Part shown: piece by piece, positions 24,251 through 63,999 of the stretch | How positions within the stretch are numbered: position 1 is the first letter of the stretch | Layout of the letters: each line of letters begins with the position of its first letter | DNA from: Cladocopium goreaui | Taxonomy: Eukaryota > Sar > Dinophyceae > Suessiales > Symbiodiniaceae | Length of the DNA: 64,000 bases | Assembly: GCA_947184155.2 (NCBI GenBank) | Contig: CAMXCT020001657.1 | Location: 437,574 to 501,573, forward strand | Direction of reading: 5' to 3' | Program-made: the position numbers and the translations under genes | The notes under the pieces: generated by a model | What the model saw: only the letters and a program-made list of their open reading frames with translations | The model's database searches: none | Told to the model about the DNA's origin: nothing

Positions 24251-24595
24251 GATGTAGAGAGGGTCACGAGATAATAGGTCAAAATTCGCTCGAACTGCCG
24301 AATGAAAGCTGCGGGAAATGTCGAGGTGAGACAAGGATAGTGTGCGAATGAAAAAGTGTGAAACATAATACGAGGTCCCAGTGTGTGAAACGTAATGTGA
24401 AAACGAATCTTGCGAAAGGATCAACAATATGAGCATGCAGCGATTCACAAATCTTTTGAGGAAGAAGTGGCGGCAATACCGAATGTCGGGAGAAGCATTG
24501 TTACTCCAAAATGATCGGGCGGGGCCACTAGGCTCATTGTATCGCTGACGTAGAATAGTCGATACTTGCTCCGGTGCTCCTCAAGGGTAAATAGT

Positions 24596-36760: not shown

Positions 36761-36892
36761 AACAACTCCGGCAGCAAACCAATCTCCAATACCTTTTCAG
36801 ATGGTGGAGCCTGAGTCTGTGCCAGCTTGGTTGCCTTCTGCTTTGCAACCAGCTGGGGTTGTTGGATACTTGATCGCATCCATCTTACCTCA
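36761..36892 (-). repeat. Split direct repeat A, inner copy
   Basis: 132 bp, same as 36476-36607. The last 8 bp of the recombinase ORF, with its TAA, run into it. Confidence 0.92.
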
Positions 36893-38818: not shown

Positions 38819-39105
38819 ACGCCCACACGCGGCCAGCTTCGACCCGATTGCACGGGGTGAAAGGGCAAATTGGGACTCGCCTGCAGCAGCGATGACAGGC
38901 CCAAACCAAGGCTATCCCGTGGCAGACGACGCCTGTCAGAGCCATCCATTGGATGAAAAGGCCCAGGGGTGTGTCGGGGGACATTTTGAGCCCAAAAGTG
39001 ACCTACGAAGCCGGGTCATCGCCTGAAACATGTTTCAAACATCACCTCAGCAAGCAAAGTAAATGTTCCTTCAACCCTCCAACATCTGCGACGCAGCCGA
39101 TTTCT

Positions 39106-40212
39106 TCAGCCTAGCCACGACATCCAGGGTCCTGTCAGATCTGTCTCATCTGACTTGCCCCAAAGGTCAGGGCGCCGGCCCGGAGTTGGAAGTGGATAGA
39201 ACTCGTCATCCCGGACGGCACTCACCGAGATGGTTCCTTCCTTGATCTCGGGTGGTCGGGGCGAGTCCTTCCATGTTGAAGGCCGACTTAGGTAGTCGGC
39301 TACCTTGTTGGCAACGCCCGGGATGTGCTGGAGCTTTGCGTCCTCAACTCTGTACCGCTCCAACAGCACACCCAGCACGGCGCCACAAAAGTTTTGGGCA
39401 GGCGATGCGCCTGACTTCTTAAGGGTGGTGGACAGCGCGGTCACCGAGTCCGATTGGATCGTGATCACGACGTTCATGCCCGCGAGCTTGTTGCCCCAAT
39501 GTTGCAGCGCCATAATGATGGCCAGGGCTTCCACCACCCCTTGAGAAGAGGATGCTCCCCATTCGAATCCCAAGCCCTTCGCGTCTCCCTCGGTTACCGG
39601 GGACGCCACTGTGTCGATGACTTGGTCATTGATCACCAGCACCGCGCCCAGTCCCTCCGGGGAGGCATCTGTAATCAGGGCCACCTTCGCCTTGTTTCGG
39701 CTGGTCAGGGATATTTTCCGTGAGGGCCTCTCCTTCGTCACGTTGAGGTACTCCATCAGCGCCAGCCTGGGCCCTTCCAGTCGCTTCACGACAAAGAGTC
39801 CGCTTTTGTTCCTCGAATCAGCCCTTCCTTCTCTCCTTGTTGATTCCTTTCCAGACCTGACTTCCTCCTCTCTGTCGGCCAAGACAGCGTAGAAGACCCG
39901 GAGGATCCACTTCGTCCTCGGCAGGATGCCTGAGAGCCAGGATAGTTTGCCCGTCACCGTTCTCAGCTCGGCTATCGGGGCCATTCCTCTGTTTTCCCAT
40001 TCCTTCAACCTGCCTTGGAGATCCACAATGAACTTCTCCGGCAAGGTGACGAGGATTTCCGTCTCGGATAGGAGTCTGAACTCCACACCTGCCCATGTTA
40101 CGGACGCTCCTCGTTCTCCTTTTCCAACAGAAAGTTTGAAGCCCAGGGCGGACATGGTGTGGAGTACGAACCCCAGCAGCAGATTCCGTCGTGAGTTCCC
40201 TGGAGTGCCCAC
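39106..40212 (-). CDS. RT thumb and RNase H of the split-repeat retrotransposon
   Basis: The frame 40212-39106 continues the reverse transcriptase after its YLDD box (SALGFKLSVGKGERG, VTWAGVEF) into an RNase H. The RNase H has LITDASPEGLGAVL (first Asp), GVVEALAIIMAL (Glu), IQSDSVTAL (Asp) and KVADYLSR (last Asp). RNase H removes the RNA strand during cDNA synthesis. It lies in a different frame from the preceding RT ORF, with a 115-nt overlap, so it is either reached by frameshifting or separated by a mutation. The ATG at 40212 is probably not a natural start. Confidence 0.82.
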   Translation of the reverse strand: MGTPGNSRRNLLLGFVLHTMSALGFKLSVGKGERGASVTWAGVEFRLLSETEILVTLPEKFIVDLQGRLKEWENRGMAPIAELRTVTGKLSWLSGILPRTKWILRVFYAVLADREEEVRSGKESTRREGRADSRNKSGLFVVKRLEGPRLALMEYLNVTKERPSRKISLTSRNKAKVALITDASPEGLGAVLVINDQVIDTVASPVTEGDAKGLGFEWGASSSQGVVEALAIIMALQHWGNKLAGMNVVITIQSDSVTALSTTLKKSGASPAQNFCGAVLGVLLERYRVEDAKLQHIPGVANKVADYLSRPSTWKDSPRPPEIKEGTISVSAVRDDEFYPLPTPGRRPDLWGKSDETDLTGPWMSWLG

Positions 40213-42659
40213 AACGAGTCATCCAGGTAGGTCTGGTGTTGTGCCTCCTCCTGCGGCAGACACGACTGCAGCATCCTCGATGTCCACGCCGCCATCCGGG
40301 ACCATCGCAACGGGGCCGTCCGGAACCCAAACAGCAAGGCTCTGAAGAGCAAGAAGCCGTCTCCTTCGATGTCCGGAGTAAGGGTGTGCTCGAGTTCCTT
40401 CTCATGCACTGGCAGATGTGGAAAGGCGTCGGCGATGTCGATGAGGGTGAGCTCACGCGACCACTTCCCATGCTGTTCCTCCACTGACGTCTGTGGGTGA
40501 AGCCGGTGCATAGCCCTCGCCATCTCCACTGCGTCCATGGCCCTTGGTAGGACTATCTTCTCGTCTAACCTCGCCTTACTGTTGCCACCCGACCGGCGGA
40601 GGTCGATGATCAGCCTCCTCTTCCGTGTTCCGTCCGGCCTTGTCTTGACAATGATGGCCAGCTTCGAGATGGTGCCCTGCGAGAAGTGTTCGTCGACCTG
40701 CTCCTTTGACACCTTCATCACGTAGCCCAGCTCCAGGAGTCTTCTGATCTCTTCCTTGGAGTCTTCCAGGTTGTCCGTGATGCTGATGTAGTTCGTGATG
40801 GCTCCCCTGGCAATCTGCAGGCTTGCGTCCATCATGACTTCGGGGTCACCTTCTTTGTCTGCAGGGGGGAAGACGCCCTTCGGCTTGATGTCGAGGTTCA
40901 CACCCAGCGGCGTTCCTTCATCCACCCAGTCTGCCAGGTCGGTGTCTGGGTCCCCAGCCTTCCTCGTCCAGGCCCGTATGAGGTCCGACTCCAAGGGGGA
41001 TCTGTACCTCCACCTGGATTGAAGCTTCACGGTACGTTTGCCCTGGCTCCCCACTAGCCTTCGGAGCTCCACTTTCCATCTGTCGACCGTTGCTTCATCC
41101 AGCTTGCAGTCGGGGGTTCCATATGCTGCCGCTGCTTCACCTGCCAGTCGGTTGCTCTTGTAGAACCTTTCCCATGATGCGAGGATCCTCATTCCGAGGT
41201 TGAGGGCTCCTGGCATGCCGGCCACCGTGGTTACAGGGTTTCTCATGCCCCCCACGAAGTTGAGGTTGGCTGGGTTGTTGCCCTTCGACTTGGACTCCTT
41301 CAGCATGCCGTAGTTGCCACCGCCGCCAGCCCAGGGCTTCAGTCGAACCTTGCCCTGTTCTGCTTTGACCTCTACCTTCGTGTCACCCTCGTCTTCCGTC
41401 TCGTACTCATAGGTGTATTCGTCCTCCTCCTTGGGTTTCGCCTTGGACTTGGAGGTGGCCGCACTGTCGGCTTTGGCCTGAAGTTTTTCCTCTTCCTTCG
41501 TCTTGATGTGCTCGCCTTTGACTCCTCTCTCCGGAGTTGGGGAGGCTTGACGTTTGGTCCTTCCCCTCAGCTCTTCCACCTCCTTCTTCAAGTCCGATTC
41601 CCTCTTGGCATAGAACTCGGCTGTTGCCAGCCTGCGGAAGTGCTGTATGACCAACTCGGCATACTTGTCGCACAACTCCTGGGGGTAATGTCCTGACGAC
41701 ACAGATCTCTGCTTGCCGATCACCGGGATGTGGTCTGCATCACCGCACGGGCACGAGCCTGCCAGCGACCCCAGGCCAAGCAGCGAGCCCGCAAACATCT
41801 GCGGCTTGTAAGTCCTCTGACCTGCTGCGACCTCCCTCTGGTAGTGGCACGTAGTGAAGTTGACCTTCGTCCAGTCCATCTTCTCCACCGCGCTGTCCAC
41901 TTCCGGGAGTTCCCATGCTGAGCAATGATGTGCGTGGTCAGATGGGGGAGGGTTCTCAACCGTCACAGCAGGTTTGATCCGGTCTTCGGGTCTGGAGTTC
42001 AAAATGACTTCACCCATCATTATGGATCTGGAGGCATGTAATGTACCCTGATCACATTCATCTTGCAACTTTTGGGTGTTGCTGGGCAGTCCATAAGGGT
42101 GCCTTCGAGAACGACAGGGCCCAGGGTAACCCTTCATTTCCCTCCAACGCAATTTCGAAAATGAAGTACATGGGAACCCTGCATGAAACCCATCCCACAA
42201 CCCCCTCCTGGCTCTATCAAGAAGCTCGGAGTAGGGTTCTTCGGCCAGTAGGTTGACTCCATCTCTGTCCCTGTCGAAGCTCTCGACTGTCACCTTCATC
42301 TTGTGCCTTCGTGCCGCTCTCGAGAGTGCTGAGCCAAGTGGGTCCTGAGGTCCAGAGTACAAGTGCAAAAAGAAAAACCGTCTCTTCATCAAATAGAGGT
42401 CCAATGTCATCAATTTCCCATTGAACTCCGCCTTGTCCTGATTGTCCTTGTTTGGACGTCTATGGGACCTGCTTCTTCGGTCTCTCCCTTGTTCTTCTTT
42501 GTCTTCTCTGCCCTCGCTTTCAGACCTTCGCCGCCTCGTTGATCTCGACCTCGCCCAGCTCCAGATCGGCGGAACTTGTGCAAAGCTTGGCTCATCAGCT
42601 TCTTGCCACCTTCGTCTTGTTGTGGGAGTCCTGCAATGCCAGTCCCGCTTCAGCTCCAT
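40098..42659 (-). CDS. Methyltransferase-like + reverse transcriptase ORF of the split-repeat retrotransposon
   Basis: 853 aa from the ATG at 42659 (MELKRDWHC), 2 nt after the Gag stop; the frame is open further upstream, but that part is antisense to sense in the Gag region. After an RS-rich leader, residues ~90-250 show a C5-methyltransferase-like set: FLHLYSGPQDPLG (motif I), VESFDRDRDG (II), GFPCTSFSKLR (IV, the PC-x-x-x-S nucleophile loop) and VTVENPPP (VI). A Lys/Glu-rich linker follows. The DIRS-like RT has RRLIIDLRRSGGN, LTLIDIADAFPHLPV (motif A), FGFRTAPLRWSR (motif B) and TYLDDSLW (motif C). The RT catalytic pair is intact. Methyltransferase activity is inferred from motifs only. 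Confidence 0.82.
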   Translation of the reverse strand: MELKRDWHCRTPTTRRRWQEADEPSFAQVPPIWSWARSRSTRRRRSESEGREDKEEQGRDRRSRSHRRPNKDNQDKAEFNGKLMTLDLYLMKRRFFFLHLYSGPQDPLGSALSRAARRHKMKVTVESFDRDRDGVNLLAEEPYSELLDRARRGLWDGFHAGFPCTSFSKLRWREMKGYPGPCRSRRHPYGLPSNTQKLQDECDQGTLHASRSIMMGEVILNSRPEDRIKPAVTVENPPPSDHAHHCSAWELPEVDSAVEKMDWTKVNFTTCHYQREVAAGQRTYKPQMFAGSLLGLGSLAGSCPCGDADHIPVIGKQRSVSSGHYPQELCDKYAELVIQHFRRLATAEFYAKRESDLKKEVEELRGRTKRQASPTPERGVKGEHIKTKEEEKLQAKADSAATSKSKAKPKEEDEYTYEYETEDEGDTKVEVKAEQGKVRLKPWAGGGGNYGMLKESKSKGNNPANLNFVGGMRNPVTTVAGMPGALNLGMRILASWERFYKSNRLAGEAAAAYGTPDCKLDEATVDRWKVELRRLVGSQGKRTVKLQSRWRYRSPLESDLIRAWTRKAGDPDTDLADWVDEGTPLGVNLDIKPKGVFPPADKEGDPEVMMDASLQIARGAITNYISITDNLEDSKEEIRRLLELGYVMKVSKEQVDEHFSQGTISKLAIIVKTRPDGTRKRRLIIDLRRSGGNSKARLDEKIVLPRAMDAVEMARAMHRLHPQTSVEEQHGKWSRELTLIDIADAFPHLPVHEKELEHTLTPDIEGDGFLLFRALLFGFRTAPLRWSRMAAWTSRMLQSCLPQEEAQHQTYLDDSLWALQGTHDGICCWGSYSTPCPPWASNFLLEKENEERP

Positions 42660-42661
42660 GA

Positions 42662-44179
42662 TCAGCCTTCCTTCTGAGGGCATTGGCTTGAAGGGTGTCC
42701 CACAGAGCCACACTTTGTGCAGATGTGGGCTCTTTGAACTCTTCCTTGGCAGGCGGCACCTGGTGGTAAGCCAGCACAGGCCCCATTGTTGTTGTTCCAG
42801 GCGTAGCAGGCTTGGGTCTTCTCTTTTCCCTTGCCCTTGCCCTTGCCTTCGCCTTTCACCCTTTTGGGGTCTGCTTGGCCTTCTGTGTCGGCCTGTCTTT
42901 TCTTTGCCTCCTTCCTCCTCGCATTCCGTGTCCTTCTTGTCGAAGCCGGTGTCCCCGTTGAAGTTTCTGTGTCCGGCTTGATTGCACTGATGCCACCCTG
43001 AATGGAGGAGGTGGCAATGGCTTCCGCCGGTGTCAGCGGTCTTCCCTTCGATCCATGCGCCAGCCATGCATTGGCAGGCACGTGAACTTGCTCTGCCCAG
43101 AAAGCTGCATCCTTGATCAGCAGCCGGAAGAGGCTTTCCCAGGGGTTTTCCTCTGACCACCCCATTGGTTCCTTCGTGCCGTTGGCGATGTCCATGTTGA
43201 CCGACACCTTCAGTCGTACAAGATGCTCGGATCTTGCAAGATCGTCTGCGCCCACGATGAGGTGCCATGCGCCCGGGTATAACCTGTCCAGCTTTTCGAT
43301 GTGGGCCTCGTAGGCAACGCACGTCGCCATCGTCAGGATGTCGAGCATGAGGAGTGCCGTCCTGTAGACCCTGAAGCTTGACCTCCATTGGTCGTAGGTG
43401 CTCGGTCCTGGGATCTCCTTCGTGATGTACCCGCCCATGACCGGGATGTAGGACCGGTACTTCTGCGTCCTGTGGGCCTTCTTGCCGTAGGGCAACCAGA
43501 CCGAGAAGTCGGCGTATGGAGAGCCCCCCGCATTGATCCTCCTCAGGAGGGCTGAGATCTGCTCCGTCGAGGGTTCCTCTTGCTCCAGTGGTAGCCCTCC
43601 GGTTTGCTTCACAAAGTTCTCCAGCCACCTCTGCTTCTGCTCCTCGGAGGATATGATGAACTCCGATTCGTCCCCTTGATCCAGGACTGCAGAAAACTTC
43701 ATCTTCCGTTCCGTCGAAACCTTCGGCACCTCCTTGAACTCCATGGCCCCAGGGGCGATCGCCGGGCTTTCTGCCCACGGGTCTGGGTCGACCCATAGCC
43801 TCAGGTCCAATCCCGAGTCCAGATGTAGTTTCCGCCTTGCTAGACGGTAGACCAGCCCCAGTTGTGCAGCTTGGACCACGGTGAGATGGGATCCATCCTC
43901 CAAAGTCGCGGCCTCCGATGTCGCCGCAACTGCCTGGGGTGGAAGCGCGGCCAACAGCCTGTAGTCGTCCGAAGGATCTCCTGCTGCTCGGACGAAGGCG
44001 CTCCACACCTGATCGTCCACCCCAAAGTAGGCCCTGCACGCCCGCAAGGATCCAAAGGGCGCCAATTCCGTGGGCCACGCCATGCGCAAGGCGACCCATT
44101 CCCTTTTCAAAAATTGGTGGGGGAATCTCACCACCAGCTTGAGCCAAAATGGCACAAGTGATGAGATTCCACCCACCAT
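42662..44179 (-). CDS. Gag-like protein with a CCHC zinc knuckle
   Basis: 505 aa if started at the ATG at 44179, but the first ~25 residues are coded by the terminal repeat and read through the spliced-leader-like sequence, so a downstream Met is possible. Globular N-terminal ~330 residues are followed by a Lys/Arg/Gly-rich tract (GEGKGKGKGKEK) and a zinc knuckle CTKCGSVGHPSSQC (C-x2-C-x4-H-x4-C) just before the stop. This is the composition of retroelement nucleocapsid proteins that bind RNA. The stop TGA is followed 2 nt later by the ATG of the methyltransferase-RT ORF, as in termination-reinitiation. Confidence 0.8.
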   Translation of the reverse strand: MVGGISSLVPFWLKLVVRFPHQFLKREWVALRMAWPTELAPFGSLRACRAYFGVDDQVWSAFVRAAGDPSDDYRLLAALPPQAVAATSEAATLEDGSHLTVVQAAQLGLVYRLARRKLHLDSGLDLRLWVDPDPWAESPAIAPGAMEFKEVPKVSTERKMKFSAVLDQGDESEFIISSEEQKQRWLENFVKQTGGLPLEQEEPSTEQISALLRRINAGGSPYADFSVWLPYGKKAHRTQKYRSYIPVMGGYITKEIPGPSTYDQWRSSFRVYRTALLMLDILTMATCVAYEAHIEKLDRLYPGAWHLIVGADDLARSEHLVRLKVSVNMDIANGTKEPMGWSEENPWESLFRLLIKDAAFWAEQVHVPANAWLAHGSKGRPLTPAEAIATSSIQGGISAIKPDTETSTGTPASTRRTRNARRKEAKKRQADTEGQADPKRVKGEGKGKGKGKEKTQACYAWNNNNGACAGLPPGAACQGRVQRAHICTKCGSVGHPSSQCPQKEG

Positions 44180-51149: not shown

Positions 51150-51810
51150 GTTACAAGCGTTACTGTTTGACAGGCGAAACAGCCTAAAGACTACAGCAAG
51201 TGCACGCTTGTTTCTTGAGCCATAAGCACAGTATAGTATGGATGAATTAGGGTATATGTACAGTAGTATACATGAAAAACACCCCCCGCCGCCCGCAGAT
51301 TTCCGCGGAGGACGGAAGGCTAACCACGTACGCCAGAAGTGACCTGAGAGCGGACGGGTTGAAACAAGACATCACTGTACATGATTACCTACCATCTGTG
51401 CTATGTGGTCTCAGCTCGAATGCATGAGGCAAAATGAGAAAAGGTCGGATGCATTAACTTTTCAATCCATGGCAGGGCACGTGCTTGAAGAGACACAAAA
51501 GTGAAGTTGGCCTGGCTTCCGCCAAGGCATAGGAACATTACCATTCCTTTCAATTGCCTTTGGTTCGGAAACTACTGTATCAGGCTAACCTACACGGCAT
51601 CTGTACACGTGCAACTACCGCAGAGGATCGGATGCTGGTGTCAATCTCATTGAATAAATTGAGAAAAGTTTTTCAAGTTAATCAAGTTGGAATTTCAAGT
51701 TTTGGAAATGTGTGCAATTCGATTGAACTGAATGACCATGGGTCAGCTTTCATCCAATCGGCCAAACCTTCCGGTAGGCATAAAAAATCATGGCACAGGA
51801 TGTGAAACAT
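51150..51810 (-). other. Noncoding DNA downstream of the Copia polyprotein, probably including its 3' LTR
   Basis: No coding frame. It lies between the polyprotein stop and a host kinase exon, so the 3' LTR and insertion border should be here. The 5' LTR is outside the window, so the LTR cannot be delimited. No clear polypurine tract was seen. Confidence 0.4.
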
Positions 51811-54800
51811 CTACCAAGATTCAAACTCTACCGTCCCATCATTGTAGGTGCGCTTGAAGTGCGGCTGGCCGTTGATCTCGCAGTACTCCTCAGCAATCAC
51901 AACTGGTGCACGAGGCACCTGTCGTGGATGCTCTGTTGCAGGAGCTGATCCAGAGGCAGCTTGGGCAGAATCGCCAGCAGCTGGTGTTGTGTCAGGCACA
52001 GGCGTCGCTGTTGATGGTGGCCGCACTGGCTCCGGAGGAGCTGCCGAGGAGCTTGATGCTGTAGATCTTCCCCAAGGATCAGCAGTCCAACCTCGGCCAG
52101 AGTAGCCCTGATTCCAATTCCAGCTTTGCCATTGGGCCTGCCCTCCCGAGCGGCTTGAGTAAGATCCATACGAACCCCACTGTTGCCCTCGGTTCCATCC
52201 ACTGCGGCACTCAAAGGATTTGTGGCCATACTGACCGCACTTCCAGCATTCAATGGCCTGCTGAAAGATTGGTCGCTGTTGTTGACCATAGCCCTTGCCT
52301 TTGCCCTTGGCTGGCTTCTGAATCGGGTCAAAATGACGCCGGTATCCTTCTCGCCCTTCGCCAGTACCCGTCTTGGAGGATCTTGCCAATGGAAAATCAG
52401 CCACATCTGATGCAGTGGCTTCATCCACGAAGGAGTGTTCTTCACCCTTGATGTTATTGTATTGTTCCTTCCACTGCCTCTTCGCGAAATCGACGAGGTC
52501 GAAGAAACAATCTTGGGCTGACCCTTGATCCACAGGCATCATTGAGCCAGACCAACCAAATAACATCGGCGTGGGTTCCCCCCTCGCTTTCAGCAAGTCC
52601 GCAGCAAGAACAGCAAATTGTGGGAGTGTAAAAACTCGTGCATGATGTGCAACCATGGCTTCCTTTGTAACGTCCAACGGGAGTCGGATGTCTCTGTTGA
52701 AGTCTGGCATAAAAATCAAACGAGTGCTGACACCTGTTCCCAGCTGCTTTTCTCGCTTCTCTCGGGTACGGCCGACATCAGGGGCAATGCATTTTGCCAA
52801 GTCCTCCAAAAATTGGCAACAGTCGGGAGTGATCTGGCCGACCGCATTGTTGAACAAATAAAATGGGTCCTTCTCCATGCGGTCCTGGATCGACTTGAAG
52901 CCGAGCTTCGTGTATCTTCCCGCATGTGTCTGAGCAGCGTCCTTGAGATTTCCGAAATTGCTTCGTCCAGCTCGACGTTGATCTGCTCGGGTGCGGTCGG
53001 AGACTCGCTGAGCTCGAGGCTGCTTCTCAAAGTCGATTTTGTCCAGAGAAAATACCTTGTTGGTTTTCTTGGCCGAGATTTCCATCCGGCATACCTCTGT
53101 CGCAATTCTTCCATCCGACCAAGCAATCAGCCATTTGAAGCACGACTGACATTTGTGGGTGCCCTCAATGTTCTGTTCGCCGCAGAAGTGGCATCGGACC
53201 TGTTGCATCTCAATCTTTGAGCTGTAGATGTAATCCTCAGCATTTGTTGAGCGCTGGGCCTGCCCTCCCGGGCGGCTTCCTTTTCCCTTGCCTTTTCCCC
53301 GGCCCTTGCCTTTGCGAATGGTTTCGGCATTGGACAAGGCACCAAAGGAGGCCATCTTCAACGTCACTTTGTCCTCGAAGGGTCCTGAAGTTCCTTCACG
53401 TCGACGAAGAAGTGGGGGAAGCTCTTCTGGAGAGTCGGTCACCTGCATCTGGCCGGGTCGAATGGACTTGCCGCTCATGAGGTAGGCCTTCAAACTGTCC
53501 CTGGCGTTGGCATACGGGCTCTTTGACAGTGCTTCTCTCTTCGGAGTGTCCTGGTCCTTGTGGGTCTTCATTTTGTTGTTGTACCCCACACGCGTGATCT
53601 CATAGGGGCGATTCACCCAGGCAAACTCCCTGTTGACAGCATCATATGTGCAAATGATGTTCTCGTTGGAGATCCAGTCAGGGCTTATGATTGCTTCGTC
53701 TGTACGAAACAATCGGCAGCCGCTTTGGACGATGAGCTCGGTGTCAAAGGCAATGTAGTATTGCTTCCCGGCTCGCGTTCCCGCGAGCTTTCTGCCACCG
53801 ACCGAATCATCCCATGGATGTGACGCAATAAAGAAATTATGCGCCCTTCCTGTCCTTTGGGGCCAGCCACCTGGGATGAGACCATGTTCAACTATCTTGT
53901 CCATAGCGAGCCTGTCGCAGCTATGGTAGATAACCCTTGGAAGTGCAGCCAGCATCTCCGGCACAAGGTCTGGACGAAGGTTTGTCCTTGGCAACTTGGG
54001 CGTGTCGAGGTCGGCCTTGGTAAAGGTTGGATCCAAAGTAAACACTTCCTTCACCAGCGATGAAATTTTGGCATTTTCCACCACTGCACGGTTGTGTCCT
54101 TGGACAGCTCTGATGGCGACAACCTTCCATGGCAAACCCTTCCAGGTTGCATCAGGCAAATCGGGCTGAGCCACTTTCACCTGAAAGCGCCTGGTGTCAC
54201 TGTTGCGCACGATGGACAGGACCTCACTGATCTTCGGGTAGGAGACGTAGTGGGCCATCGTCTTCATCACCGCCTCGAAATCCATCGAAAGATCCATGGG
54301 ATCGATGTCTGGGCTGCGAGCACCATAGCTCAATGCGTGCCCCCGGAGAACATAAGATAACTTTGTGGAAAGAAATCTCAGTCGCCCTTGGCCGCAATAC
54401 TCCTTGGGAATCCTGTTGATCATGTCATTGGGGTCCAACCATACTGATCCCTCTTGGCGTTCCGTCGCTTCTTCCAATTTGCGAAGGGCTGCATCAGCTT
54501 CGACACTGAGTCGCGGCGCTTTCTGTCTGGGCTGCGCTTTTGACTCTGGTGCCTTTTGCTTTTCACTCTTCGGCATTTTCTTTTCGGCCGGCTTTCCAAC
54601 TGGCTTGTCAACCTCCACCTTCTTCTCGGTCTTGGTCAGGTCGACAATGGCAGTCTTGTCAGCAGGCTGTTCGGAAGAAGCAGAAGCCTCAGGAACTGCA
54701 GCATCAGTCGGCACACCCTCCCGGGCAGCATCAGCACCTTCCTTCTTCTCAGAGTCAACGTCCATGGCAGTGGCTTCAGATCCACCAACCTCGGTCCAAG

Positions 54801-56031
54801 TTGAGATCCTGGAAGAAGTCATGTCGCTGGGCTTGGATTCATCACCACCAACCACACTCCAAGTTGAAATCCTCGATGAAGTCATGTCTTCCCCTCCTTG
54901 GTCAGCCTTTGCGGGTGCATCTTTTGCAGCAGCAGGGTCATCGGCCGACGTTCCCGAAGGCTTTGCCTCAGCGGATGTGATCTCGATGATCTTGTTGAGA
55001 TCTTCAACCTCCTTGGCTCTTTCCTCCGAGATTTCATCTTCCTTGACCTTCTCGTCATGGGGATTGACAATGATCTTCTCATCAAGGATCACGTCCCACT
55101 CATCAAACTCGGGAACGACTTCAACATCATCATCGACATCAGTGTTCTCCGGATTGATCTCGATCGACTCAATGGTTGTAGTTGAGAAACCATCAGCAAC
55201 GGCCTGATTCAAATCTTCTTGAAGGTATTGTCGGGCCCTGACTTCTTCGGTTTCGTAGTCCTCGATCGAAGGGTCAATTGGGACGATGGAGCTGATCTCT
55301 TCATCAGTGAAAGCAGTGGGCATCGGCCTTCCCTCCCGGGTGGCTTCCTCGTTGGCCTCAAGAATTCCTGCATGGACCCACATGAGGATCTCCTCATCTG
55401 CCTCGTCGAAGACCTGGGCAGGGGTTGCCGTTTTCTTCTCGGTGGAGACGGCTTCCATGACTTCTTGAGTGCCGAGCAAAGCCAAACGAAACTGAACCAT
55501 CGTGGGGAAGAGATGGACCGCGGCCACACGATCTTGCTCGTTGCTGATGAACTCCTTCACAAAGTACTTGAGATCGTCCTGCTTCGACATGAGCTCAACG
55601 TATTTGAGGTGGAAGGTGATGGCTCCTCTCAAGAAACGATAAACCAGTTTCCGGTTAAATTGGTGGTCGTGCAGGTGGTAGTTGTCGTATTTCCCACCCT
55701 GAGCGAGCATAGTGGAGTTCACACATTGAATGCCACGCTCTGCCAGCCAATTGATGTGCTTGCCCATCTCACGGTTGTAAGATGGCGGCAATGAGTATCC
55801 GGAATGGTCACCGTTCCCGATGACTTGCACAGACATGACACGGGGGTCCTTGGAAATCTCAACCAGTCCTTCCAGTGATCGCTGCACCTTCTTGTACTGC
55901 TTGTCGACGTACTCGGCAGCGACCTTCCGGTCGGCTTCTGACTTCGTGAGATTGGATTGGTGAATCCATGTACACCCTTGGTATCCAAAGTCCCCGTGCA
56001 CATCGTTCCCCGCCCATCCGACGACGACCAT
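51811..56031 (-). CDS. Copia polyprotein, third segment: SGNH end, KptA/Tpt1-like domain, zinc knuckle
   Basis: 1406 codons in the same frame as the two segments upstream. Residues 1-135 complete the SGNH-like domain (VVVGWAGNDVHGD, block III GxND; DNYHLHDHQFNRK, the last catalytic His). About 230-545 is acidic, low-complexity. About 545-790 is KptA/Tpt1-like: an N-terminal winged-helix part (LSTKLSYVLRGHAL, IRAVQGHN), then an ADP-ribosyltransferase-type part (IYHSCDRLAMDKIVEHGL, GRAHNFFIAS, GTRAGKQYYIAFD, CRLFRTDEAIIS). Tpt1 removes the 2'-phosphate left at tRNA ligation junctions, using NAD+. Three arginines match the catalytic set, but the usual Arg-His pair reads Arg-Gly-His. Then come a GK-rich tract (~905), a C4 ribbon (RCHFCGEQ...CQSC) and CWKCGQYGHKSFEC near 1260. 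The first Met is only the first after the TGA, not a proven start. Confidence 0.8.
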   Translation of the reverse strand: MVVVGWAGNDVHGDFGYQGCTWIHQSNLTKSEADRKVAAEYVDKQYKKVQRSLEGLVEISKDPRVMSVQVIGNGDHSGYSLPPSYNREMGKHINWLAERGIQCVNSTMLAQGGKYDNYHLHDHQFNRKLVYRFLRGAITFHLKYVELMSKQDDLKYFVKEFISNEQDRVAAVHLFPTMVQFRLALLGTQEVMEAVSTEKKTATPAQVFDEADEEILMWVHAGILEANEEATREGRPMPTAFTDEEISSIVPIDPSIEDYETEEVRARQYLQEDLNQAVADGFSTTTIESIEINPENTDVDDDVEVVPEFDEWDVILDEKIIVNPHDEKVKEDEISEERAKEVEDLNKIIEITSAEAKPSGTSADDPAAAKDAPAKADQGGEDMTSSRISTWSVVGGDESKPSDMTSSRISTWTEVGGSEATAMDVDSEKKEGADAAREGVPTDAAVPEASASSEQPADKTAIVDLTKTEKKVEVDKPVGKPAEKKMPKSEKQKAPESKAQPRQKAPRLSVEADAALRKLEEATERQEGSVWLDPNDMINRIPKEYCGQGRLRFLSTKLSYVLRGHALSYGARSPDIDPMDLSMDFEAVMKTMAHYVSYPKISEVLSIVRNSDTRRFQVKVAQPDLPDATWKGLPWKVVAIRAVQGHNRAVVENAKISSLVKEVFTLDPTFTKADLDTPKLPRTNLRPDLVPEMLAALPRVIYHSCDRLAMDKIVEHGLIPGGWPQRTGRAHNFFIASHPWDDSVGGRKLAGTRAGKQYYIAFDTELIVQSGCRLFRTDEAIISPDWISNENIICTYDAVNREFAWVNRPYEITRVGYNNKMKTHKDQDTPKREALSKSPYANARDSLKAYLMSGKSIRPGQMQVTDSPEELPPLLRRREGTSGPFEDKVTLKMASFGALSNAETIRKGKGRGKGKGKGSRPGGQAQRSTNAEDYIYSSKIEMQQVRCHFCGEQNIEGTHKCQSCFKWLIAWSDGRIATEVCRMEISAKKTNKVFSLDKIDFEKQPRAQRVSDRTRADQRRAGRSNFGNLKDAAQTHAGRYTKLGFKSIQDRMEKDPFYLFNNAVGQITPDCCQFLEDLAKCIAPDVGRTREKREKQLGTGVSTRLIFMPDFNRDIRLPLDVTKEAMVAHHARVFTLPQFAVLAADLLKARGEPTPMLFGWSGSMMPVDQGSAQDCFFDLVDFAKRQWKEQYNNIKGEEHSFVDEATASDVADFPLARSSKTGTGEGREGYRRHFDPIQKPAKGKGKGYGQQQRPIFQQAIECWKCGQYGHKSFECRSGWNRGQQWGSYGSYSSRSGGQAQWQSWNWNQGYSGRGWTADPWGRSTASSSSAAPPEPVRPPSTATPVPDTTPAAGDSAQAASGSAPATEHPRQVPRAPVVIAEEYCEINGQPHFKRTYNDGTVEFESW

Positions 56032-56091
56032 GATCGGGAGTGTTGCTCTGTCAAGAAGGCGATTTTCTCGTTCGACCTTCTCAATCAGCTC

Positions 56092-58530
56092 TCAGATCTG
56101 GTGATTGATGGCGCTGAGGCCCTTACCCCATTTCAGTCCTGGGTAAACGGACCTGATCTGGCCAATGGCATACTCCTTGCTCTGTAGCAGTTCACCAAAG
56201 GAAAGCCTGGAGCAGAGCACAGGGTTGTCGTGGTTGGCCACAAGTGCGAAAGATGAGTCACCAACAATGATCAAGTCGGCCTCACCTTCCGGTGGGCATT
56301 CAACGGCACCAAACAAAGCAGCAGGGATGTCCTTCACCAAGTCGACAATGTCACAGTAGGTCCTCTGCGTTTCGTTGGTGTCCTTCCCGACGAGACCATC
56401 AATCACGTCACCAATCGGGATTTGCCCACTTCCAATCTTGTTTGCACCTTCATAGCCATCAGGAAAGATGCATGCCACACATGAGCCTCGAATTGTAGCC
56501 AGTTTCTTTTCCCATTGGAGAATCCTCTCATAGATCGTCAAGCGATACTCCGGAGCGATCTGCTCCACCTGGAAGTTCGCATCCTGGCGCCAATTGGCAT
56601 GTTCCGAACCTGGCCGACCTTCCGGAAGACGTACCCCAGCTTGAGCTGCTTCCGTCACATGAGGAGGAAGAGACACCGAAGCGGAAGTAGCATCCAACAT
56701 CACGGCAAAGACAGGCAGGTCGGAGACGGCGATCAAAGCACACGCGAATGTTCGAGCAGATTGAGCTGCCCGGTCAAAAGCTCTGTGCACACAATCAGTA
56801 AAAAGGTATGAGTAACTTTCAGTTTCTTTGAGTGGCTTGCCTCTCCCTTGCACGTGGTCATGTGACTCGTCGCATTGGTATTGTGACAATTCCAAACCAA
56901 TTTCATCAACTGTAGTAGCGACAGTCCAGGGCTTTTTGATAGGAATCCCTTCGTGGTCTTTTGTGCCGAGCATACATCCATGGAAATCATATCTCTTCAA
57001 GGAGAATTTATGGATAAACTTGAGTACTCTCGGGAATTTCCAGTACCGACAATTTTGAGGCCATTCAATTGCAACTTCAAAGTCTCTGGTTAGCCGATGA
57101 ACAAATCTTTCAAAAGCTTTCCATAACTTTTTCATAGTCTTGACATGTTTCATGACCTTCTTAGCGGCACTTGGGATTTTCAAGTTCACATGAGACCACG
57201 ATGTGCCCCCCGTGCAAGGGAGGCTCAGCCACAAAAGGACATCTTTGGACACTGGAAAATCGTTCACAATGCTTGCAACATACAGTTGATAATCTTCGTC
57301 CAACAGACTATGCTTCTCGGTAAACTGAATCACTCTACATCCAACGGCGGCTTCTCTGGAAACATCACTCAACTTGGACATGGGACTGCAGCAAATTTCC
57401 ACTAGCAAACGATTGGGGTTCAGGCTGGCTCTCGGTTCCCCGGAGCTTCGACTGGATGCCATAGCCTTGGGCCGTGGGGTACCAGTCGTTGCACGATTAG
57501 AACCGGATGAGCTGGCCTTACTACTCTTGGGTGCTACGTGGGACATGAGGGCCAGTGCAAATCGCCATTTCTCTGCATTAGTGAAAGGCTTAGTCAAGAT
57601 GTCTGCAACCTGCATTTTAGATGGTCCATATGTCAAATCATACCATCCCCTCTTATACTGCTCTGATAACCATGACAAGTTGATCCGTTGGGTTTTGTCT
57701 GTATGACGAAACGATGGTGACTTACCGTTCTCCAAGATTCTGATGGTGGCTTGGTTGTCTTCGACGAAGATTCCACGGATGCTCTTGGGAGGGAAGAGTG
57801 ACACCATGTAATCACCCATTTTCTCTTGCCCTACAAATTCAAAATCAGTAAGTGCTTCCCGAACTTCCGATGATTCAACTTCATAATCACTATCATAGGG
57901 TCCAAAAACACGGAAGAAGGTCTTTCCGGTCCATTGTTTATCAACAGGTCTTGTTCCACGTCTTTTCCAATTGTCCTGGATGAAGTCCATCATTCCTGAA
58001 GAAATAAAAATGGTTGTTCTGGCATATCCAATGCGCTTGATTGGGATTGGAATGGTCTTGGACTCAGTCGGATTGAAAAGGTGGGCCCTGTTCTTGGGAT
58101 GAACACGGACAAGCAATCTCCTATCTCGTAAAAACTCCCAGTACTCACCGTTACCCTCAGGTTGGGTCTTGATACTTTCTCTTGGCAAACCTCCCGGAGT
58201 GCTTGATCCCCCCCCCGCGTTCTGGAGGTAGGCCCATAAACCGGATGAAGGCAGTCCTACAGCGCGGAGGGAAATGTTTGCAGCAACTACTTCGGCTTCA
58301 GTGCTAGAAACTGACACTGATGTTTGCTTCTTAGAGAATGCAGTGAGTGGGAAATAAGTATTGGGACCTATTAGGACTAAGAAACATCCAGTAGTACTTT
58401 TGTTGTCGTACTCACCGGCATGATCGGCGTCGGCAAAACACCAAAGTTTGCACTCTTGAATTCGATCGCCAACGAAGGCTTTGAGCTTGTGATCCAATGT
58501 AGAATGTATGTAACAAATTAATCTATGCAA
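56092..58530 (-). CDS. Copia polyprotein, middle segment: RNase H, methyltransferase-like, SGNH start
   Basis: 812 codons between the in-frame TAG (58554) and TGA (56094); the listed start codon is a TTG and the frame continues upstream to the TAG. Residues ~30-80: RNase H (CFADADHAGEYD, SVSSTEAEVVAA). Residues ~230-320: the second half of RNase H, with VEDNQATIRI and the KTQRINLSWL helix, then DILTKPF, the usual Copia end. Residues ~370-545: a Rossmann-type methyltransferase-like domain, LVEICCSP (I), LSLPCTGGTSW (PC loop), AIEWPQNCRYW, GIPIKKPWTVATT. Residues ~750-812: LIIVGDSSFALV, the Ser block of an SGNH hydrolase, cut by the TGA. The methyltransferase assignment rests on motif order only. 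Confidence 0.75.
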   Translation of the reverse strand: MHRLICYIHSTLDHKLKAFVGDRIQECKLWCFADADHAGEYDNKSTTGCFLVLIGPNTYFPLTAFSKKQTSVSVSSTEAEVVAANISLRAVGLPSSGLWAYLQNAGGGSSTPGGLPRESIKTQPEGNGEYWEFLRDRRLLVRVHPKNRAHLFNPTESKTIPIPIKRIGYARTTIFISSGMMDFIQDNWKRRGTRPVDKQWTGKTFFRVFGPYDSDYEVESSEVREALTDFEFVGQEKMGDYMVSLFPPKSIRGIFVEDNQATIRILENGKSPSFRHTDKTQRINLSWLSEQYKRGWYDLTYGPSKMQVADILTKPFTNAEKWRFALALMSHVAPKSSKASSSGSNRATTGTPRPKAMASSRSSGEPRASLNPNRLLVEICCSPMSKLSDVSREAAVGCRVIQFTEKHSLLDEDYQLYVASIVNDFPVSKDVLLWLSLPCTGGTSWSHVNLKIPSAAKKVMKHVKTMKKLWKAFERFVHRLTRDFEVAIEWPQNCRYWKFPRVLKFIHKFSLKRYDFHGCMLGTKDHEGIPIKKPWTVATTVDEIGLELSQYQCDESHDHVQGRGKPLKETESYSYLFTDCVHRAFDRAAQSARTFACALIAVSDLPVFAVMLDATSASVSLPPHVTEAAQAGVRLPEGRPGSEHANWRQDANFQVEQIAPEYRLTIYERILQWEKKLATIRGSCVACIFPDGYEGANKIGSGQIPIGDVIDGLVGKDTNETQRTYCDIVDLVKDIPAALFGAVECPPEGEADLIIVGDSSFALVANHDNPVLCSRLSFGELLQSKEYAIGQIRSVYPGLKWGKGLSAINHQI

Positions 58531-58551: not shown

Positions 58552-61500
58552 CTATTTTGTTACTCTAGCTGCAAGTCCTTGCACGGCTCTAAGCAAGTCA
58601 TATCTTGCCATACGGGCGGCAAATAGGATCTTCATCAAAACCCTTGCAGCTATTGGAGCAAGTGCACCCTTCGGTTCGGACTCCCCTTCCAGAGGTCTTG
58701 CAATCCTCTCTTCATGAAAAGGAGTGGATACCTGCTTAAGGGGTTTGGCGTCTTTACCGGCAAGTGACTGGTATCGGTCAATACATGATTGCAAAAAGGG
58801 TTGCATGTCGTATGTCATTACATTCACTGGCTTGGACATACAAGGTTGATCTTTGAACAATTGGTCCATGTATCTGAAACCTTGAGCTCTTGCTTTCTTC
58901 TTGGCATCGTTTTTATCTCTTTTAAGTGATGCAACTGCAATTTTGGGATCTTTGCAAGTCTTGGTGAATAGGTAAGTGGCACCTACCCATAATGCAGGCT
59001 TTCTCTTCCCTTGTGCATAGCCCCCCGTTTCATCAAGGTACTTGTCCCATTCAGAAACGGCATCGTCTTCCGACGTGCTTTGCACAAAGTCAGTAAACCT
59101 AACATCAGTCAAGTTACATGCAGTTATGATTTCTTCATCTGGAACATAGAATCCCTTTCTTGGTTGACAGTGATGTCTGATGTAGACTCCTTTGGATGCG
59201 TCAACTTCCCAAAAGTCCTGAGTCCTCTCCGCTGCTGCGGCCTCCTTGGCGGCGGGATCAGGAAGGGACTTGTCGAAGAGGTGAGCGAAAGGGTGATCAT
59301 GAACCGTCAGCTTAACTTGAAGTTCTTGAACATGATCACATCCAAGATATCGACCAATGTCAGTGGGGACATCCATATCGATTCTGGATCCAACTAACTC
59401 CCATCCTTTCGGCATCGACTCTTTAGGACCTGACATTTTGAAGTCATCTACATACACTACCAAGAGGAGCTTCAATTCAGGATGAAAGAACACTGATGGC
59501 CACCCTTCCGGGTCAGGCATTATGAACCCCACCGCTATGAGCATCCTTTCGCAGTGAATTTCCCAAAGTCCCCCCGAGTCAGGGTGACCATATAAGGCAA
59601 TGCGAAGGAGTACAACGGGGCGTCTATACTTGCCTACCCAATGTTTGGGCCATCTATCAACTGGAAGTTCCACCCAGGTTTCAATCCCTTCCATTAGTGC
59701 TTGAGTATATGCTTGGACACCGTCATTCTGTTGAGTTATGTGTCCGGGCTGAGAACCATATGCATCCACAGCTTTACCAGCCTCCATGGTCGCAGGCGAT
59801 GAGCCTAGCTCGGAGAAAAGAGCAACATCGGCGTTCTCATCACGGACATTGTTGCCCTGGAATACCGTTCTACCCTTAAATTTCCTAAGCTTGTGGCCCA
59901 CTGGAAGTTCACTACCCTTTTCAACACAAATTTCAAACACCTTTCCAACATGTACTTTCTTCCCTTTCTTTTTGGCACCATCGGAGACTACGCTCCACTC
60001 TTGTACGGTATCGTACAACCAGGCAGTTTTCTTGACGAGCTTATTCCACTCGATGTCAAGAGATTCCTGAGCTTTAGGGTTGGAACTTATCTCCTTCTTG
60101 TTGACTGGCTGGGCCACAAGAGTGTTGATGATCTTTTCCCCGCTCATTATACTAACCCGGGCGCACTTAACCCGATGCCTATCTTGGGAATACTTACAAG
60201 TGGGCATGGTTGGAAAATCATCCTCTGAGTGATATGCATGATGGAGTTGATTGATGATGCTTGCAACACCCTTCTTGGATTTCTCAAGTCTCGCAAGTTC
60301 TTGTTCGGCTCTAACGGCCCGTTTCTTCTCAGCTCCATCTCTGGCTAACTTCATTTGTTCTTCTCTGATTGCTTCTCTTCTGGCTTTCACAGACATGGAC
60401 TGCCAAACAAATGATGGGATGTCCATTGGTTTACTTGATCCCTTGTACCTTCTTGTTTTGAATCCATCTGCACTATAATACTGGGGGTCATCTCTTCTTA
60501 TTTTCTCAACATCACCAGTGGAAGGATTGATGACTTCGATTAGATCCTTATCCTTCGGATCATCCCCAGGGATAGCTTCGTCTACTGTAATTTCCGGCTC
60601 CGTCCTCTCGCGAAGGTCAATGATGTCCTTATGGAAGATTGTGAGCATGACCTCACATGGAGCGATGGTCTCGTTCCAGGCCTCGTATTTTGGCCAGAGG
60701 ATGAAGTTTTGGTCTAAGATGAACCAGGCATCGTCCTTCCTATGGCATGTTGTCCGATAGGGATACTCTTCAGTCGAAATCTTGCTGTTAGGAGAAATGT
60801 AATGATCACAATCTCTTCTCACGTTGACGTGACAATCAGCATATTCGTACCATCCCTCTCGGTCTTTTATATGTCTCATGAAAGGTAGCCATGTTTCATC
60901 GTGGACAGCATGGGCAGTAGATAGTTGGAAACTTTCTTCCTGGGATTCCTCGTCATCATCATCCATTTTAGCATCCTGATCCTCCAAAGCCGGCTCTTGG
61001 TTCCCCAGAGCTTCGGAAAGTCCCGGGTCATCTTTCCCAAAAGTCGTTCGGCCTTGGAGAGGAAATTGCGTATCACTCGGTTTGCTGATCTTGATTACCC
61101 GCAGGATTGATGCAGTACCATTGGATTCATTTTCAATAAGATCCTTTGTAGGTACAACCATGAATTCTTTTCTCCACATGAATTCGGGGTGAATGGCATA
61201 GCCAAGGAATAAACCAGGGCTCGATGTTGGGTCGAAGCGGAGTCCATCCTTGTTCTTCTTTCTTGGTCCATTCCAATAGTCGACAAGACAACCAAAAGGA
61301 ATGAGGGGACCGTCAAATCTCGATCCAAAACGTAATTCCCATGGTGATTTGTCTCCCCCCGTTGCAATGACATTCTGCATGAAGCACCAATGTCGGGCAG
61401 CATGTGGCCAGTGCCAATGATTCAAACCTGCCTGGAGCAGATTGACATGAGTGCCTTCAAGGACTGACCGAACCGCTCTCTCGGCTTGGGCGTTGGACTT

Positions 61501-63999
61501 GGATATGTAGTCCCTACTTAAGACATGACGGCACTGAAGGATCTTCATTGCTGAGATCAACTCGGGTGCATTGTCACTGTAGAAAACTCCTATCTTATCT
61601 TCATGTCCAACAAAATGTTTAATTGCCAAGATAGCAGCATTGGTGGTTCGTCTGGCATTGGGGTAGACATACATAAATCCTGTTGCTATGTCCTTCACTA
61701 CGAGTGCACTTTTCTCTTCATCGATTCCCAACTCATCTTCATCTCTGGTGACAATAAAATCAGCAGTGATGTGGTCACCAAATTTCTCAGCTTTAACTTT
61801 GGTTGATCCGCCTACAGCTCTTGAGGGTGGCTTGAACATCTTAGCTCTGGTGCATATGTCACAAAAAGGGTTCTTAGGGATGTGAGTCAGCATATGTCGA
61901 ATAGACTTAGCTTCTTCTTTCAAATCTTTCTCCCCTAGAGACCTTTTGTGAGCGCCATCATCATGGACGTTACTACTGCTACCCTTGGATCCTTCCACAG
62001 GCGGCTCAACCTCCCGGTCGGCATCAGGAACATCAACCTCCTCAGCCTCCAAGGGCTGGGGCTCCGGTAAGTCAACATTAACACCCATGGGGTCATCACC
62101 AATGATTTCAATGTCCCCATCGGGCTCCGGAGATTGTTGAGCTTCATCTGATGCCGGGGTGGCAATACTTGGTCTAGGCTGAGTTGATGGAGTGGAAATC
62201 GTCTTTGAATTGTTTGCAAAGTAGGGTACGTAATCTCTGACAACTAACTCGATGCGTTCCCCATTTGGTTTGACCATGTAAGGAGGTTCACCTTTGGAGC
62301 CTCTCCATATGAAGTCGTAACCATCATCAATGCATCTCATCCCGACTGAAATGACAGGAGGTGAGCTTCGAACAAGATATGGGTCAATGGTCTTGCCTAA
62401 CTTCGGAACAAATACTTTCCCTTGTTTCGATGACGAACTTTCACCATTGGCAGTAATCATGCGAATGGGATTGTTGGAGTAGTATCCATAGTCATCTGGC
62501 AATTCGCTATCATTGACAAGATCTTGAGCACTCCCCGTATCTGCAATCCAGTCAAGTTCGAGGTTGATCGCTCCCTTCACGTCTTCTCTACATTCCGCAG
62601 GGGTGACTTTGATTCCCTTTGGGATACATTCATTGCAACCAAAATCTGTGTCACATAAATAGGCACATTTGCATTCTATTCCCCGAAGACAATTGGAAAC
62701 AGATCCTGCCAGCATGGTACCGGTCAAAGCGGCATCATTCACAGCAAGTTGATCAACTTCAAACTGATGTCCCCATGGAAAGGTAACCTTATCCTTGGTG
62801 ACTGCGTTTCCAATTGGCCTCAAGTTCCCTCGGACTTTAACATGAGATACGTCCGGTGAATCATCAAAACGAATCGATGGACAAAATACTCTTGGTTGAG
62901 GGATACAAAATGCCTGAGACACGGATGCAAGCATGGATGCAACAAGACAAACTGCGGCAGGAGACGGCTTAGATGAACTGGCCCCGGATCCTTTAGACTT
63001 CGGGGACTTCGGGCTCTTGGGGCTCTTAGAGCGGCTAGAGCTTCGGGATCCCTTCCTTTTCGGGTTCTTGGGATTCTTCTTTTTATTTTTGTTTTCGCTA
63101 CTGGCCGAACGGGCAGGAGTAGCTTGTCTTGGTTTTCCCACTGAACCCTCATGAAGGAATTTGCAATCAGCTCCTCTATCGCAACGTCCCTGTTTCCAAA
63201 ACTTGCAAATCTTCTTACCTTTCCCCTTTGGTCTGGGAGAACCAGAACGTTCATTTGAGCGACCTCTGGTTTTGCTGGGTTTGCGACTTCTATCACGTGG
63301 CTTGGGGACTTCATGCTTGTAAGTACAGTTGTCCTTGCTACAGCCTCCCTTATTCCATGCCACACAATACCCCTTGGGGATGAATCCTGTCTTGCCCTCG
63401 ACTGCGGGAGCGGAGGGACGACCGGAACCCGAAAGACCTTTGGCAACTCGATCACGATTTGCCTCCAACCTCTCACGGTCAAGGTGGCGTCGCACGGCAG
63501 AAACAAGGAAACTGTAGTTCCGTTTTTCGGTTCCTTCATCAGCTCTATGATACTCATTCATGTCATGTTGGATGGCCTTACAATTCTTCACTTGTTTGTA
63601 GAAGAGTGTCTCCAATACACTTTCATCAGGAGTCTGGACGATACCAGCCAACACTTGATCCCAGTTCGAAATGAAAGACTTCAAATTCTCCCCACGCAAT
63701 TGGACACTGAACAAATCTTGAAGGGCATAAGTAGCTCCGTGCTTGATGTTGGTACTAAAGTGGTCATGCAACATGAACAAAACTTGTCTCCCTCTTACAA
63801 TCCGTCCAGCGGTGGCTTCAGTCTCTTTGAAGGTATCTACCTTACGGGCGAAGTCACCAGTGATTATATTGGTGAGCGCAGAAAGTAACTTTGCATCAAG
63901 TGTCGCAAACGGCGCAACCTTCCGGAGCGCTTCAAGGGTCTGTTCTTCTTTCCAAGAATCACTAATCCACTTGAAAGCACTATCGGGATCGGTTGATGC
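58552..63999 (-). CDS. Copia Gag-Pol: CCCH fingers, protease, integrase, reverse transcriptase (5' partial)
   Basis: Open from the window edge (1,815 codons visible; the first in-frame start-type codon at 63780 is not the true start). Gag: a helical N-terminus, two CCCH fingers (CVAWNKGGCSKDNCTYKH near 63385-63320; CKFWKQGRCDRGADCKFLH near 63215-63150) and a Ser/Arg/Pro/Lys tail. Protease: DWIADTGSAQDL near 62545. Integrase: HMLTHIPKNPFCDIC zinc site (~61870), then catalytic DHITADF, FYSDNAPEL and NAQAERAV (D, D, E). RT: VYVDDFKMSG near 59450. It ends RVTK then TAG, at a place where relatives commonly have Trp (W is one base away). CCCH fingers instead of a CCHC knuckle in Gag are unusual outside dinoflagellates. 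Confidence 0.88.
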   Translation of the reverse strand, partial: ASTDPDSAFKWISDSWKEEQTLEALRKVAPFATLDAKLLSALTNIITGDFARKVDTFKETEATAGRIVRGRQVLFMLHDHFSTNIKHGATYALQDLFSVQLRGENLKSFISNWDQVLAGIVQTPDESVLETLFYKQVKNCKAIQHDMNEYHRADEGTEKRNYSFLVSAVRRHLDRERLEANRDRVAKGLSGSGRPSAPAVEGKTGFIPKGYCVAWNKGGCSKDNCTYKHEVPKPRDRSRKPSKTRGRSNERSGSPRPKGKGKKICKFWKQGRCDRGADCKFLHEGSVGKPRQATPARSASSENKNKKKNPKNPKRKGSRSSSRSKSPKSPKSPKSKGSGASSSKPSPAAVCLVASMLASVSQAFCIPQPRVFCPSIRFDDSPDVSHVKVRGNLRPIGNAVTKDKVTFPWGHQFEVDQLAVNDAALTGTMLAGSVSNCLRGIECKCAYLCDTDFGCNECIPKGIKVTPAECREDVKGAINLELDWIADTGSAQDLVNDSELPDDYGYYSNNPIRMITANGESSSSKQGKVFVPKLGKTIDPYLVRSSPPVISVGMRCIDDGYDFIWRGSKGEPPYMVKPNGERIELVVRDYVPYFANNSKTISTPSTQPRPSIATPASDEAQQSPEPDGDIEIIGDDPMGVNVDLPEPQPLEAEEVDVPDADREVEPPVEGSKGSSSNVHDDGAHKRSLGEKDLKEEAKSIRHMLTHIPKNPFCDICTRAKMFKPPSRAVGGSTKVKAEKFGDHITADFIVTRDEDELGIDEEKSALVVKDIATGFMYVYPNARRTTNAAILAIKHFVGHEDKIGVFYSDNAPELISAMKILQCRHVLSRDYISKSNAQAERAVRSVLEGTHVNLLQAGLNHWHWPHAARHWCFMQNVIATGGDKSPWELRFGSRFDGPLIPFGCLVDYWNGPRKKNKDGLRFDPTSSPGLFLGYAIHPEFMWRKEFMVVPTKDLIENESNGTASILRVIKISKPSDTQFPLQGRTTFGKDDPGLSEALGNQEPALEDQDAKMDDDDEESQEESFQLSTAHAVHDETWLPFMRHIKDREGWYEYADCHVNVRRDCDHYISPNSKISTEEYPYRTTCHRKDDAWFILDQNFILWPKYEAWNETIAPCEVMLTIFHKDIIDLRERTEPEITVDEAIPGDDPKDKDLIEVINPSTGDVEKIRRDDPQYYSADGFKTRRYKGSSKPMDIPSFVWQSMSVKARREAIREEQMKLARDGAEKKRAVRAEQELARLEKSKKGVASIINQLHHAYHSEDDFPTMPTCKYSQDRHRVKCARVSIMSGEKIINTLVAQPVNKKEISSNPKAQESLDIEWNKLVKKTAWLYDTVQEWSVVSDGAKKKGKKVHVGKVFEICVEKGSELPVGHKLRKFKGRTVFQGNNVRDENADVALFSELGSSPATMEAGKAVDAYGSQPGHITQQNDGVQAYTQALMEGIETWVELPVDRWPKHWVGKYRRPVVLLRIALYGHPDSGGLWEIHCERMLIAVGFIMPDPEGWPSVFFHPELKLLLVVYVDDFKMSGPKESMPKGWELVGSRIDMDVPTDIGRYLGCDHVQELQVKLTVHDHPFAHLFDKSLPDPAAKEAAAAERTQDFWEVDASKGVYIRHHCQPRKGFYVPDEEIITACNLTDVRFTDFVQSTSEDDAVSEWDKYLDETGGYAQGKRKPALWVGATYLFTKTCKDPKIAVASLKRDKNDAKKKARAQGFRYMDQLFKDQPCMSKPVNVMTYDMQPFLQSCIDRYQSLAGKDAKPLKQVSTPFHEERIARPLEGESEPKGALAPIAARVLMKILFAARMARYDLLRAVQGLAARVTK

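Follow-up and report, generated by a model that had tools for sequence, protein, structure and literature searches.

What is a domain of the Tpt1/KptA family doing inside the polyprotein of a retrotransposon? The question is raised by a 64,000-nucleotide stretch of the genome of the dinoflagellate Cladocopium goreaui (GCA_947184155.2, contig CAMXCT020001657.1, positions 437,574 to 501,573), referred to as the window, in which positions are counted from the first letter. Most of a Copia-like element, about 14.6 kb long, lies in it on the minus strand. An earlier reading made from the sequence alone had proposed a KptA/Tpt1-like domain within this element's polyprotein. The proposal is now backed by profile and fold matches, by conservation and by a relative with an uninterrupted chain.

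A Tpt1/KptA-like domain in a Copia-like polyprotein

The domain comprises residues 535–800 of a 1,406-residue open stretch of the polyprotein frame (positions 51811..56031, minus strand) and lies at positions 53632..54429 (minus strand). It is laid out as a winged-helix-like N lobe and an ADP-ribosyltransferase (ART) lobe. Both family halves and the motifs quoted in the sequence-only reading are present in this frame. The Pfam family PF01885 (PTS_2-RNA) matched residues 554–781 over profile positions 6–172 of 177 with 28 bits (E = 2.6e-6), above the gathering score of 26 bits, and with 35 bits (E = 1.9e-8) when the domain was scored alone. The two-lobed Tpt1/KptA fold was recovered as well: all 21 Foldseek matches in the PDB at E ≤ 1e-3 were Tpt1/KptA proteins, the VIA matches agreed, and profile-profile comparison with hhalign gave a probability of 98.6% spanning both lobes. 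The domain is homologous to Tpt1/KptA over both lobes and shares one frame with pol.

A sequence search with residues 535–800 yielded 29 proteins at E ≤ 1e-3 (43–94% identity; 816 candidates), and a profile search added 79 further proteins. Therefore, the domain is not limited to the window copy. Neither of the outcomes named as refuting in the sequence-only reading, a missing profile or fold match or a domain found in this copy alone, was observed. PF01885 matched all 11 aligned relatives at E ≤ 1, the score being weaker (17.5 bits) in the database protein P0024, which carries RNase H motifs and the KptA domain on one uninterrupted chain. Pattern searches of contig collections gave 7 matches among viral and 14 among prokaryotic contigs, none of which was confirmed as a relative; a plasmid search returned a single weak match to a bacterial KptA (E = 0.3).

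The element carrying the domain has the terminal features of Copia: long terminal repeats (LTRs), a target-site duplication and a primer site adjoining the 5' LTR. The 3' LTR (51164..51281, minus strand; 118 bp, TGT...ACA) is identical at 118/118 positions to the 5' LTR, which lies past the window end at contig positions 503264–503381. The 5-bp target-site duplication GTAAC is found at 51159..51163, with its second copy before the 5' LTR. The element is a recent insertion. Upstream of the domain, the open stretch 58552..63780 (minus strand) encodes gag CCCH zinc fingers (zf-CCCH, 23 bits, cut-off 20.5), a reverse transcriptase (RT) region (RVT_2, E = 7.7e-4 and 19.6 bits, below the cut-off of 31.6) and an integrase-like region recognized by eye. 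The open stretch 56092..58530 (minus strand) contains copia-type RNase H motifs, which were assigned by eye and had no Pfam match, together with two further stretches described below. All three open stretches belong to one frame and are separated by single stops, so that the window copy has two in-frame stops. Near the C terminus, a CCHC zinc knuckle (52204..52251, minus strand) matched PF00098 with 18.9 bits, slightly below the cut-off of 20.8.

Further carriers, selection and history

In the assembly (1.166 Gb, 6202 contigs), the best 150 of 1496 PF01885 candidates were scored and all of them exceeded the cut-off; the window's own copy is absent among these 150. Among the 28 loci that were read individually, 3 are stand-alone Tpt1-like open reading frames (ORFs), 5 are DIRS-like elements (L015–L019), 11 belong to a Copia lineage termed c1 and 5 to a lineage termed c2, and 3 + 1 lie in further contexts. 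The stand-alone ORFs are L012 and two that resemble bacterial KptA (L013 and L014), for which gene transfer and contamination are both possible origins. The further contexts (L032, L033 and L035 in one, L037 in another) hold divergent KptA-like domains keeping LRH.

The assignment of c1 as Copia-like is based on tblastn, in which the pol of the window element matched L020 (39% over 286 residues, E = 1e-67) and additional gag-pol matches were obtained in L020, L022 and L026. Five c1-type copies have LTR matches of 170–174 bp with 99.4–100% identity. The best PF01885 copies had initially been taken for the window's lineage. This was wrong, as those read are 22–28% identical to the window domain, and the LTR and primer-site data first credited to the window's lineage belong to c1. 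The DIRS-like copy at C2112 has RT/RNase H, KptA and tyrosine recombinase in one open frame, and RT/RNase H and tyrosine recombinase motifs were seen in L030 and L031 (all by eye).

Ratios of nonsynonymous to synonymous substitution rates (dN/dS) were calculated for the domain by the Nei-Gojobori method, the pairs not being independent. The median was 0.072 in c1 (55 pairs, range 0 to 0.98), 0.077 in c2 (8 of 10 pairs) and 0.075 in the DIRS-like copies (7 of 10 pairs); the c2 and DIRS-like pairs excluded had saturated or very small dS. Judged by these ratios, the domain is under purifying selection in the sister lineages. Within the window's lineage, P0008 and P0027 were compared block by block. 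Identity amounts to 27/50 and 31/48 positions in the two final 50-residue blocks of the domain, to 31/50, 37/50 and 33/50 in the three blocks of the RNase H end, to about 31–40% in the N lobe and to about 18–42% in the linker. Hence, the ART half is conserved like the RNase H end, and the linker far less.

A tree built from 26 rows unites the 11 Copia domains in a single group (97/97; 98% of 200 bootstrap trees). The two DIRS-like domains fall apart from them, beside L032 and L012, at a position that is weakly supported and carries a long-branch warning. The separate positions of the Copia and DIRS-like domains favour two separate captures, which are not thereby proven.

Active site, primer site and possible role

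The catalytic tetrad of CthTpt1 consists of Arg18, His19, Arg68 and Arg121 (PMC6333775). By alignment rather than superposed coordinates, its three arginines are kept in the window domain as Arg29 (LRGH), Arg81 (TRRF) and Arg195 (GRAHNFF), in 25/26, 26/26 and 26/26 rows, respectively. The histidine of the YHGT motif is kept as His169 (YHSCD) and the arch arginine as Arg219 (GTRAG). Across the 26 aligned rows, LRGH is found in 25, RRF, QGH and GTRAG in 26 each, and YH in 24; four of 30 rows with truncated domains (P0015, P0025, P0029 and P0030) were excluded from these counts. The sole exception to LRGH is P0014 with VQGH. The corresponding residues are R-G-Q in c1, R-G-H in c2 and LRH in the DIRS-like copies. 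The sequence-only reading had described Arg-His as changed to Arg-Gly-His; the motif was read correctly, and the change is not peculiar to this copy. As far as the alignments go, Arg-Gly-His is a character of the lineage, and a sister lineage of Copia has Arg-Gly-Gln instead. The shifted histidine suggests altered kinetics or an altered substrate, and catalytic activity cannot be taken for granted for the R-G-H domain. As the tetrad histidine is replaced, we call the domain Tpt1-derived and refrain from classing it as a proven 2'-phosphotransferase. In RslTpt1, the replacement H17A had a threefold cost in step 2 (PMC6333775).

Directly after the 5' LTR, the core GGTTATCAGCCGTA is present in the window element and in 5 of 5 c1 copies. 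After we had completed its 3' side, the complement of this core folded as an anticodon-arm-like hairpin; it would end at about nucleotide 40, as do the half-tRNA primers of some Copia relatives (PMC1181622). The form fits a hemivirus-type half-tRNA primer site, without a matching tRNA gene having been found. A tRNA half produced by cleavage often bears a phosphate at its 3' end, and an activity like that of Tpt1 could help to remove it.

The explanation to which we lean, with slightly better than even confidence, is that an ancestor of these Copia elements captured a nicotinamide adenine dinucleotide (NAD+)-dependent ADP-ribosyltransferase of the Tpt1/KptA type, that selection retained it as a fixed part of the polyprotein, and that it would act on phosphorylated RNA or DNA ends while the element replicates. 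Tpt1 frees RNA of its 2'-phosphate by a reaction with two NAD-dependent steps (PMC6333775), and human TRPT1 ADP-ribosylates 5'-phosphates of RNA and DNA (PMC6582358); we infer NAD-dependent processing of phosphorylated nucleic-acid ends as the function. The likeliest single job would be the removal of a 2'-phosphate from the RNA priming cDNA synthesis, because the primer site resembles those used by tRNA halves cleaved within the anticodon arm, whose ends require a clean 3'-OH. Such a primer would be the 5' half of a tRNA, with its end close to nucleotide 40 and with complementarity to GGTTATCAGCC. A broader version is offered tentatively: the domain would have been captured at least twice, by Copia and by DIRS-like elements, as an NAD+-dependent RNA-repair or ADP-ribosyltransferase domain used in replication, and one step of retrotransposition would spend NAD+ on cleaning or capping nucleic-acid ends, whether of the primer RNA, the template or the cDNA.

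Several observations weigh against the explanation by capture and use in replication. Glycine occupies the position of the tetrad histidine, with histidine one residue further on, and the VHLS histidine is aligned with Phe, Tyr or His across the window's lineage; in human TRPT1, H41A abolished RNA ADP-ribosylation (PMC6582358). The structural model of the domain is of moderate quality and weakest around Arg195 and Arg219. Conservation is lower in the N lobe than in the ART lobe, the widest c1 pair has a dN/dS of 0.98 (L039 differs at the N terminus), and dN/dS covers c1, c2 and the DIRS-like copies, the window's lineage having been compared as proteins only. Contiguous patterns for a tRNA matching the primer site gave 0 matches. 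An intron-containing tRNA was rejected as primer, as the split pattern proved to be a dispersed repeat: it occurs in 20 places (9 forward, 11 reverse; 2 and 0 for the reversed-pattern control), the sequences flanking 8 of these loci do not resemble a tRNA, and ARAGORN, set to permit introns, detected none at the 6 loci scanned, the tRNA-Ser in L053 lying about 600 bases off. The primer role in particular is challenged by the DIRS-like element, which carries the domain too. Priming by a tRNA is not expected of DIRS-like elements; these carriers argue for a role broader than primer maturation. The repeat, TACGGCTGATA...ACCGTA (L053–L067), imitates the complement of the primer site interrupted by an insert.

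A domain performing only the first step, which would leave ADP-ribose on 5'-phosphorylated cDNA or RNA ends as a protective or signalling cap, is rather unlikely, albeit the most credible of the rival explanations. It would suit Copia and DIRS-like elements alike and agrees with the action of TRPT1 on 5'-phosphorylated RNA and DNA (PMC6582358), and in RslTpt1 the loss of one tetrad arginine impairs the second step much more strongly than the first (PMC6333775). However, that arginine, aligned with Arg81, is kept in 26/26 rows, and the H41A replacement that stops RNA ADP-ribosylation in TRPT1 (PMC6582358) speaks against such an activity. Use in counter-defence, in which the domain would repair or modify host RNAs such as cut tRNAs under stress or host attack, appears improbable. 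Phage and RNA-virus KptA have been interpreted in this way (PMC9503650) and two unlike element types carry the domain, but the host genome already has the stand-alone Tpt1-like ORFs, and no RNA ligase partner was noticed in the element, no search having been aimed at ligases.

We judge equally improbable that the domain is a non-catalytic relic that does no more than bind RNA or help to build the particle. The changes of both the tetrad and the VHLS histidine in Copia, and R-G-Q in c1, would fit a relic; the phosphate- and NAD-binding residues of Tpt1 are nevertheless the most conserved ones, and the DIRS-like copies retain LRH. Chance similarity, a host exon beside the element or an assembly artefact can be practically dismissed. 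The two in-frame stops of the window copy might hint at an artefact, yet the profile and fold matches, the fusion in one frame inside matching LTRs, the target-site duplication and the relatives from other contigs speak against it.

If the favoured explanation holds, the selection acting on a Tpt1-type domain in young elements would point to an end-chemistry step of retrotransposition for which we found no description. The R-G-H and R-G-Q forms are natural Tpt1 variants that make the role of the tetrad histidine directly testable.

Other features of the window and known systems

Upstream of the KptA-like domain, an SGNH-hydrolase-like domain (approximate limits 55603..56286, minus strand) is interrupted by the in-frame stop at 56092–56094. 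It has the SGNH fold and the GDS, GxND and DxxH blocks of SGNH/GDSL hydrolases. A further stretch with motifs like those of C5-cytosine methyltransferases was recognized by eye (approximate limits 56720..57414, minus strand). Its motifs LPCTGGTSW and EWPQ are conserved in P0008, P0011, P0024 and P0027; it matched no Pfam family and no fold at E ≤ 1e-3 (M.MpeI at E = 0.31). If real, this stretch would contradict the claim that Copia has no DNMT (PMC5890265).

Two other regions on the minus strand of the window are notable. The region 36885–44179 is DIRS-like, with a tyrosine-recombinase-like ORF (PF00589, 20.9 bits, below the cut-off), a zinc knuckle and, by eye, a stretch with DNMT-like motifs. 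The region 20174–27217 contains an RT-like ORF (RVT_1, weak at 13.3 bits), a GIY-YIG-like stretch seen by eye and an upstream ORF with YHKTS (24596–27217). The latter was considered as a KptA candidate and is unsupported (3.4 bits, 0.7 for the best of 200 shuffles; no Pfam family).

Compared to Tpt1/KptA/TRPT1 proteins (PF01885), the window domain shares both lobes, the three tetrad-aligned arginines, the YHGT histidine and the arch arginine. It differs in its place within a retrotransposon polyprotein, in the tetrad histidine replaced by glycine with histidine one residue on, in the replaced VHLS histidine, and in insertions between and within the lobes. Contrary to the sequence-only reading, Tpt1/KptA proteins are not always stand-alone: KptA is described in the polyproteins of Beihai picorna-like virus and Botrylloides leachii nidovirus (PMC9503650). 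There too, the domain is built into the polyprotein of a mobile RNA-based replicator, but these viruses are unrelated replicators and not retrotransposons.

Our literature search, with most subscription papers and all preprints outside its coverage, showed no Tpt1-type domain in a retrotransposon among the titles and abstract openings listed, and the combination looks new. Additional domains are said to become fixed only rarely in LTR retrotransposons (PMC9289625). SymbioLINE-Dnmt and SymbioDIRS-Dnmt3 of Symbiodinium are likewise retroelements with a nucleic-acid-modifying domain under purifying selection (Ka/Ks < 0.2), differing in being LINE and DIRS elements with a methyltransferase; Copia is said there to lack DNMT, and the word "phosphotransferase" occurs 0 times in the main text (PMC5890265). 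In orchids, Ty3/Gypsy elements carry an AlkB N6-methyladenosine (m6A) demethylase domain that is active in vitro (PMC9289625). Like ours, they are LTR retrotransposons in which the domain of an RNA-modifying enzyme has become fixed, whereas AlkB is another enzyme, in another element superfamily, and is encoded by a separate ORF.
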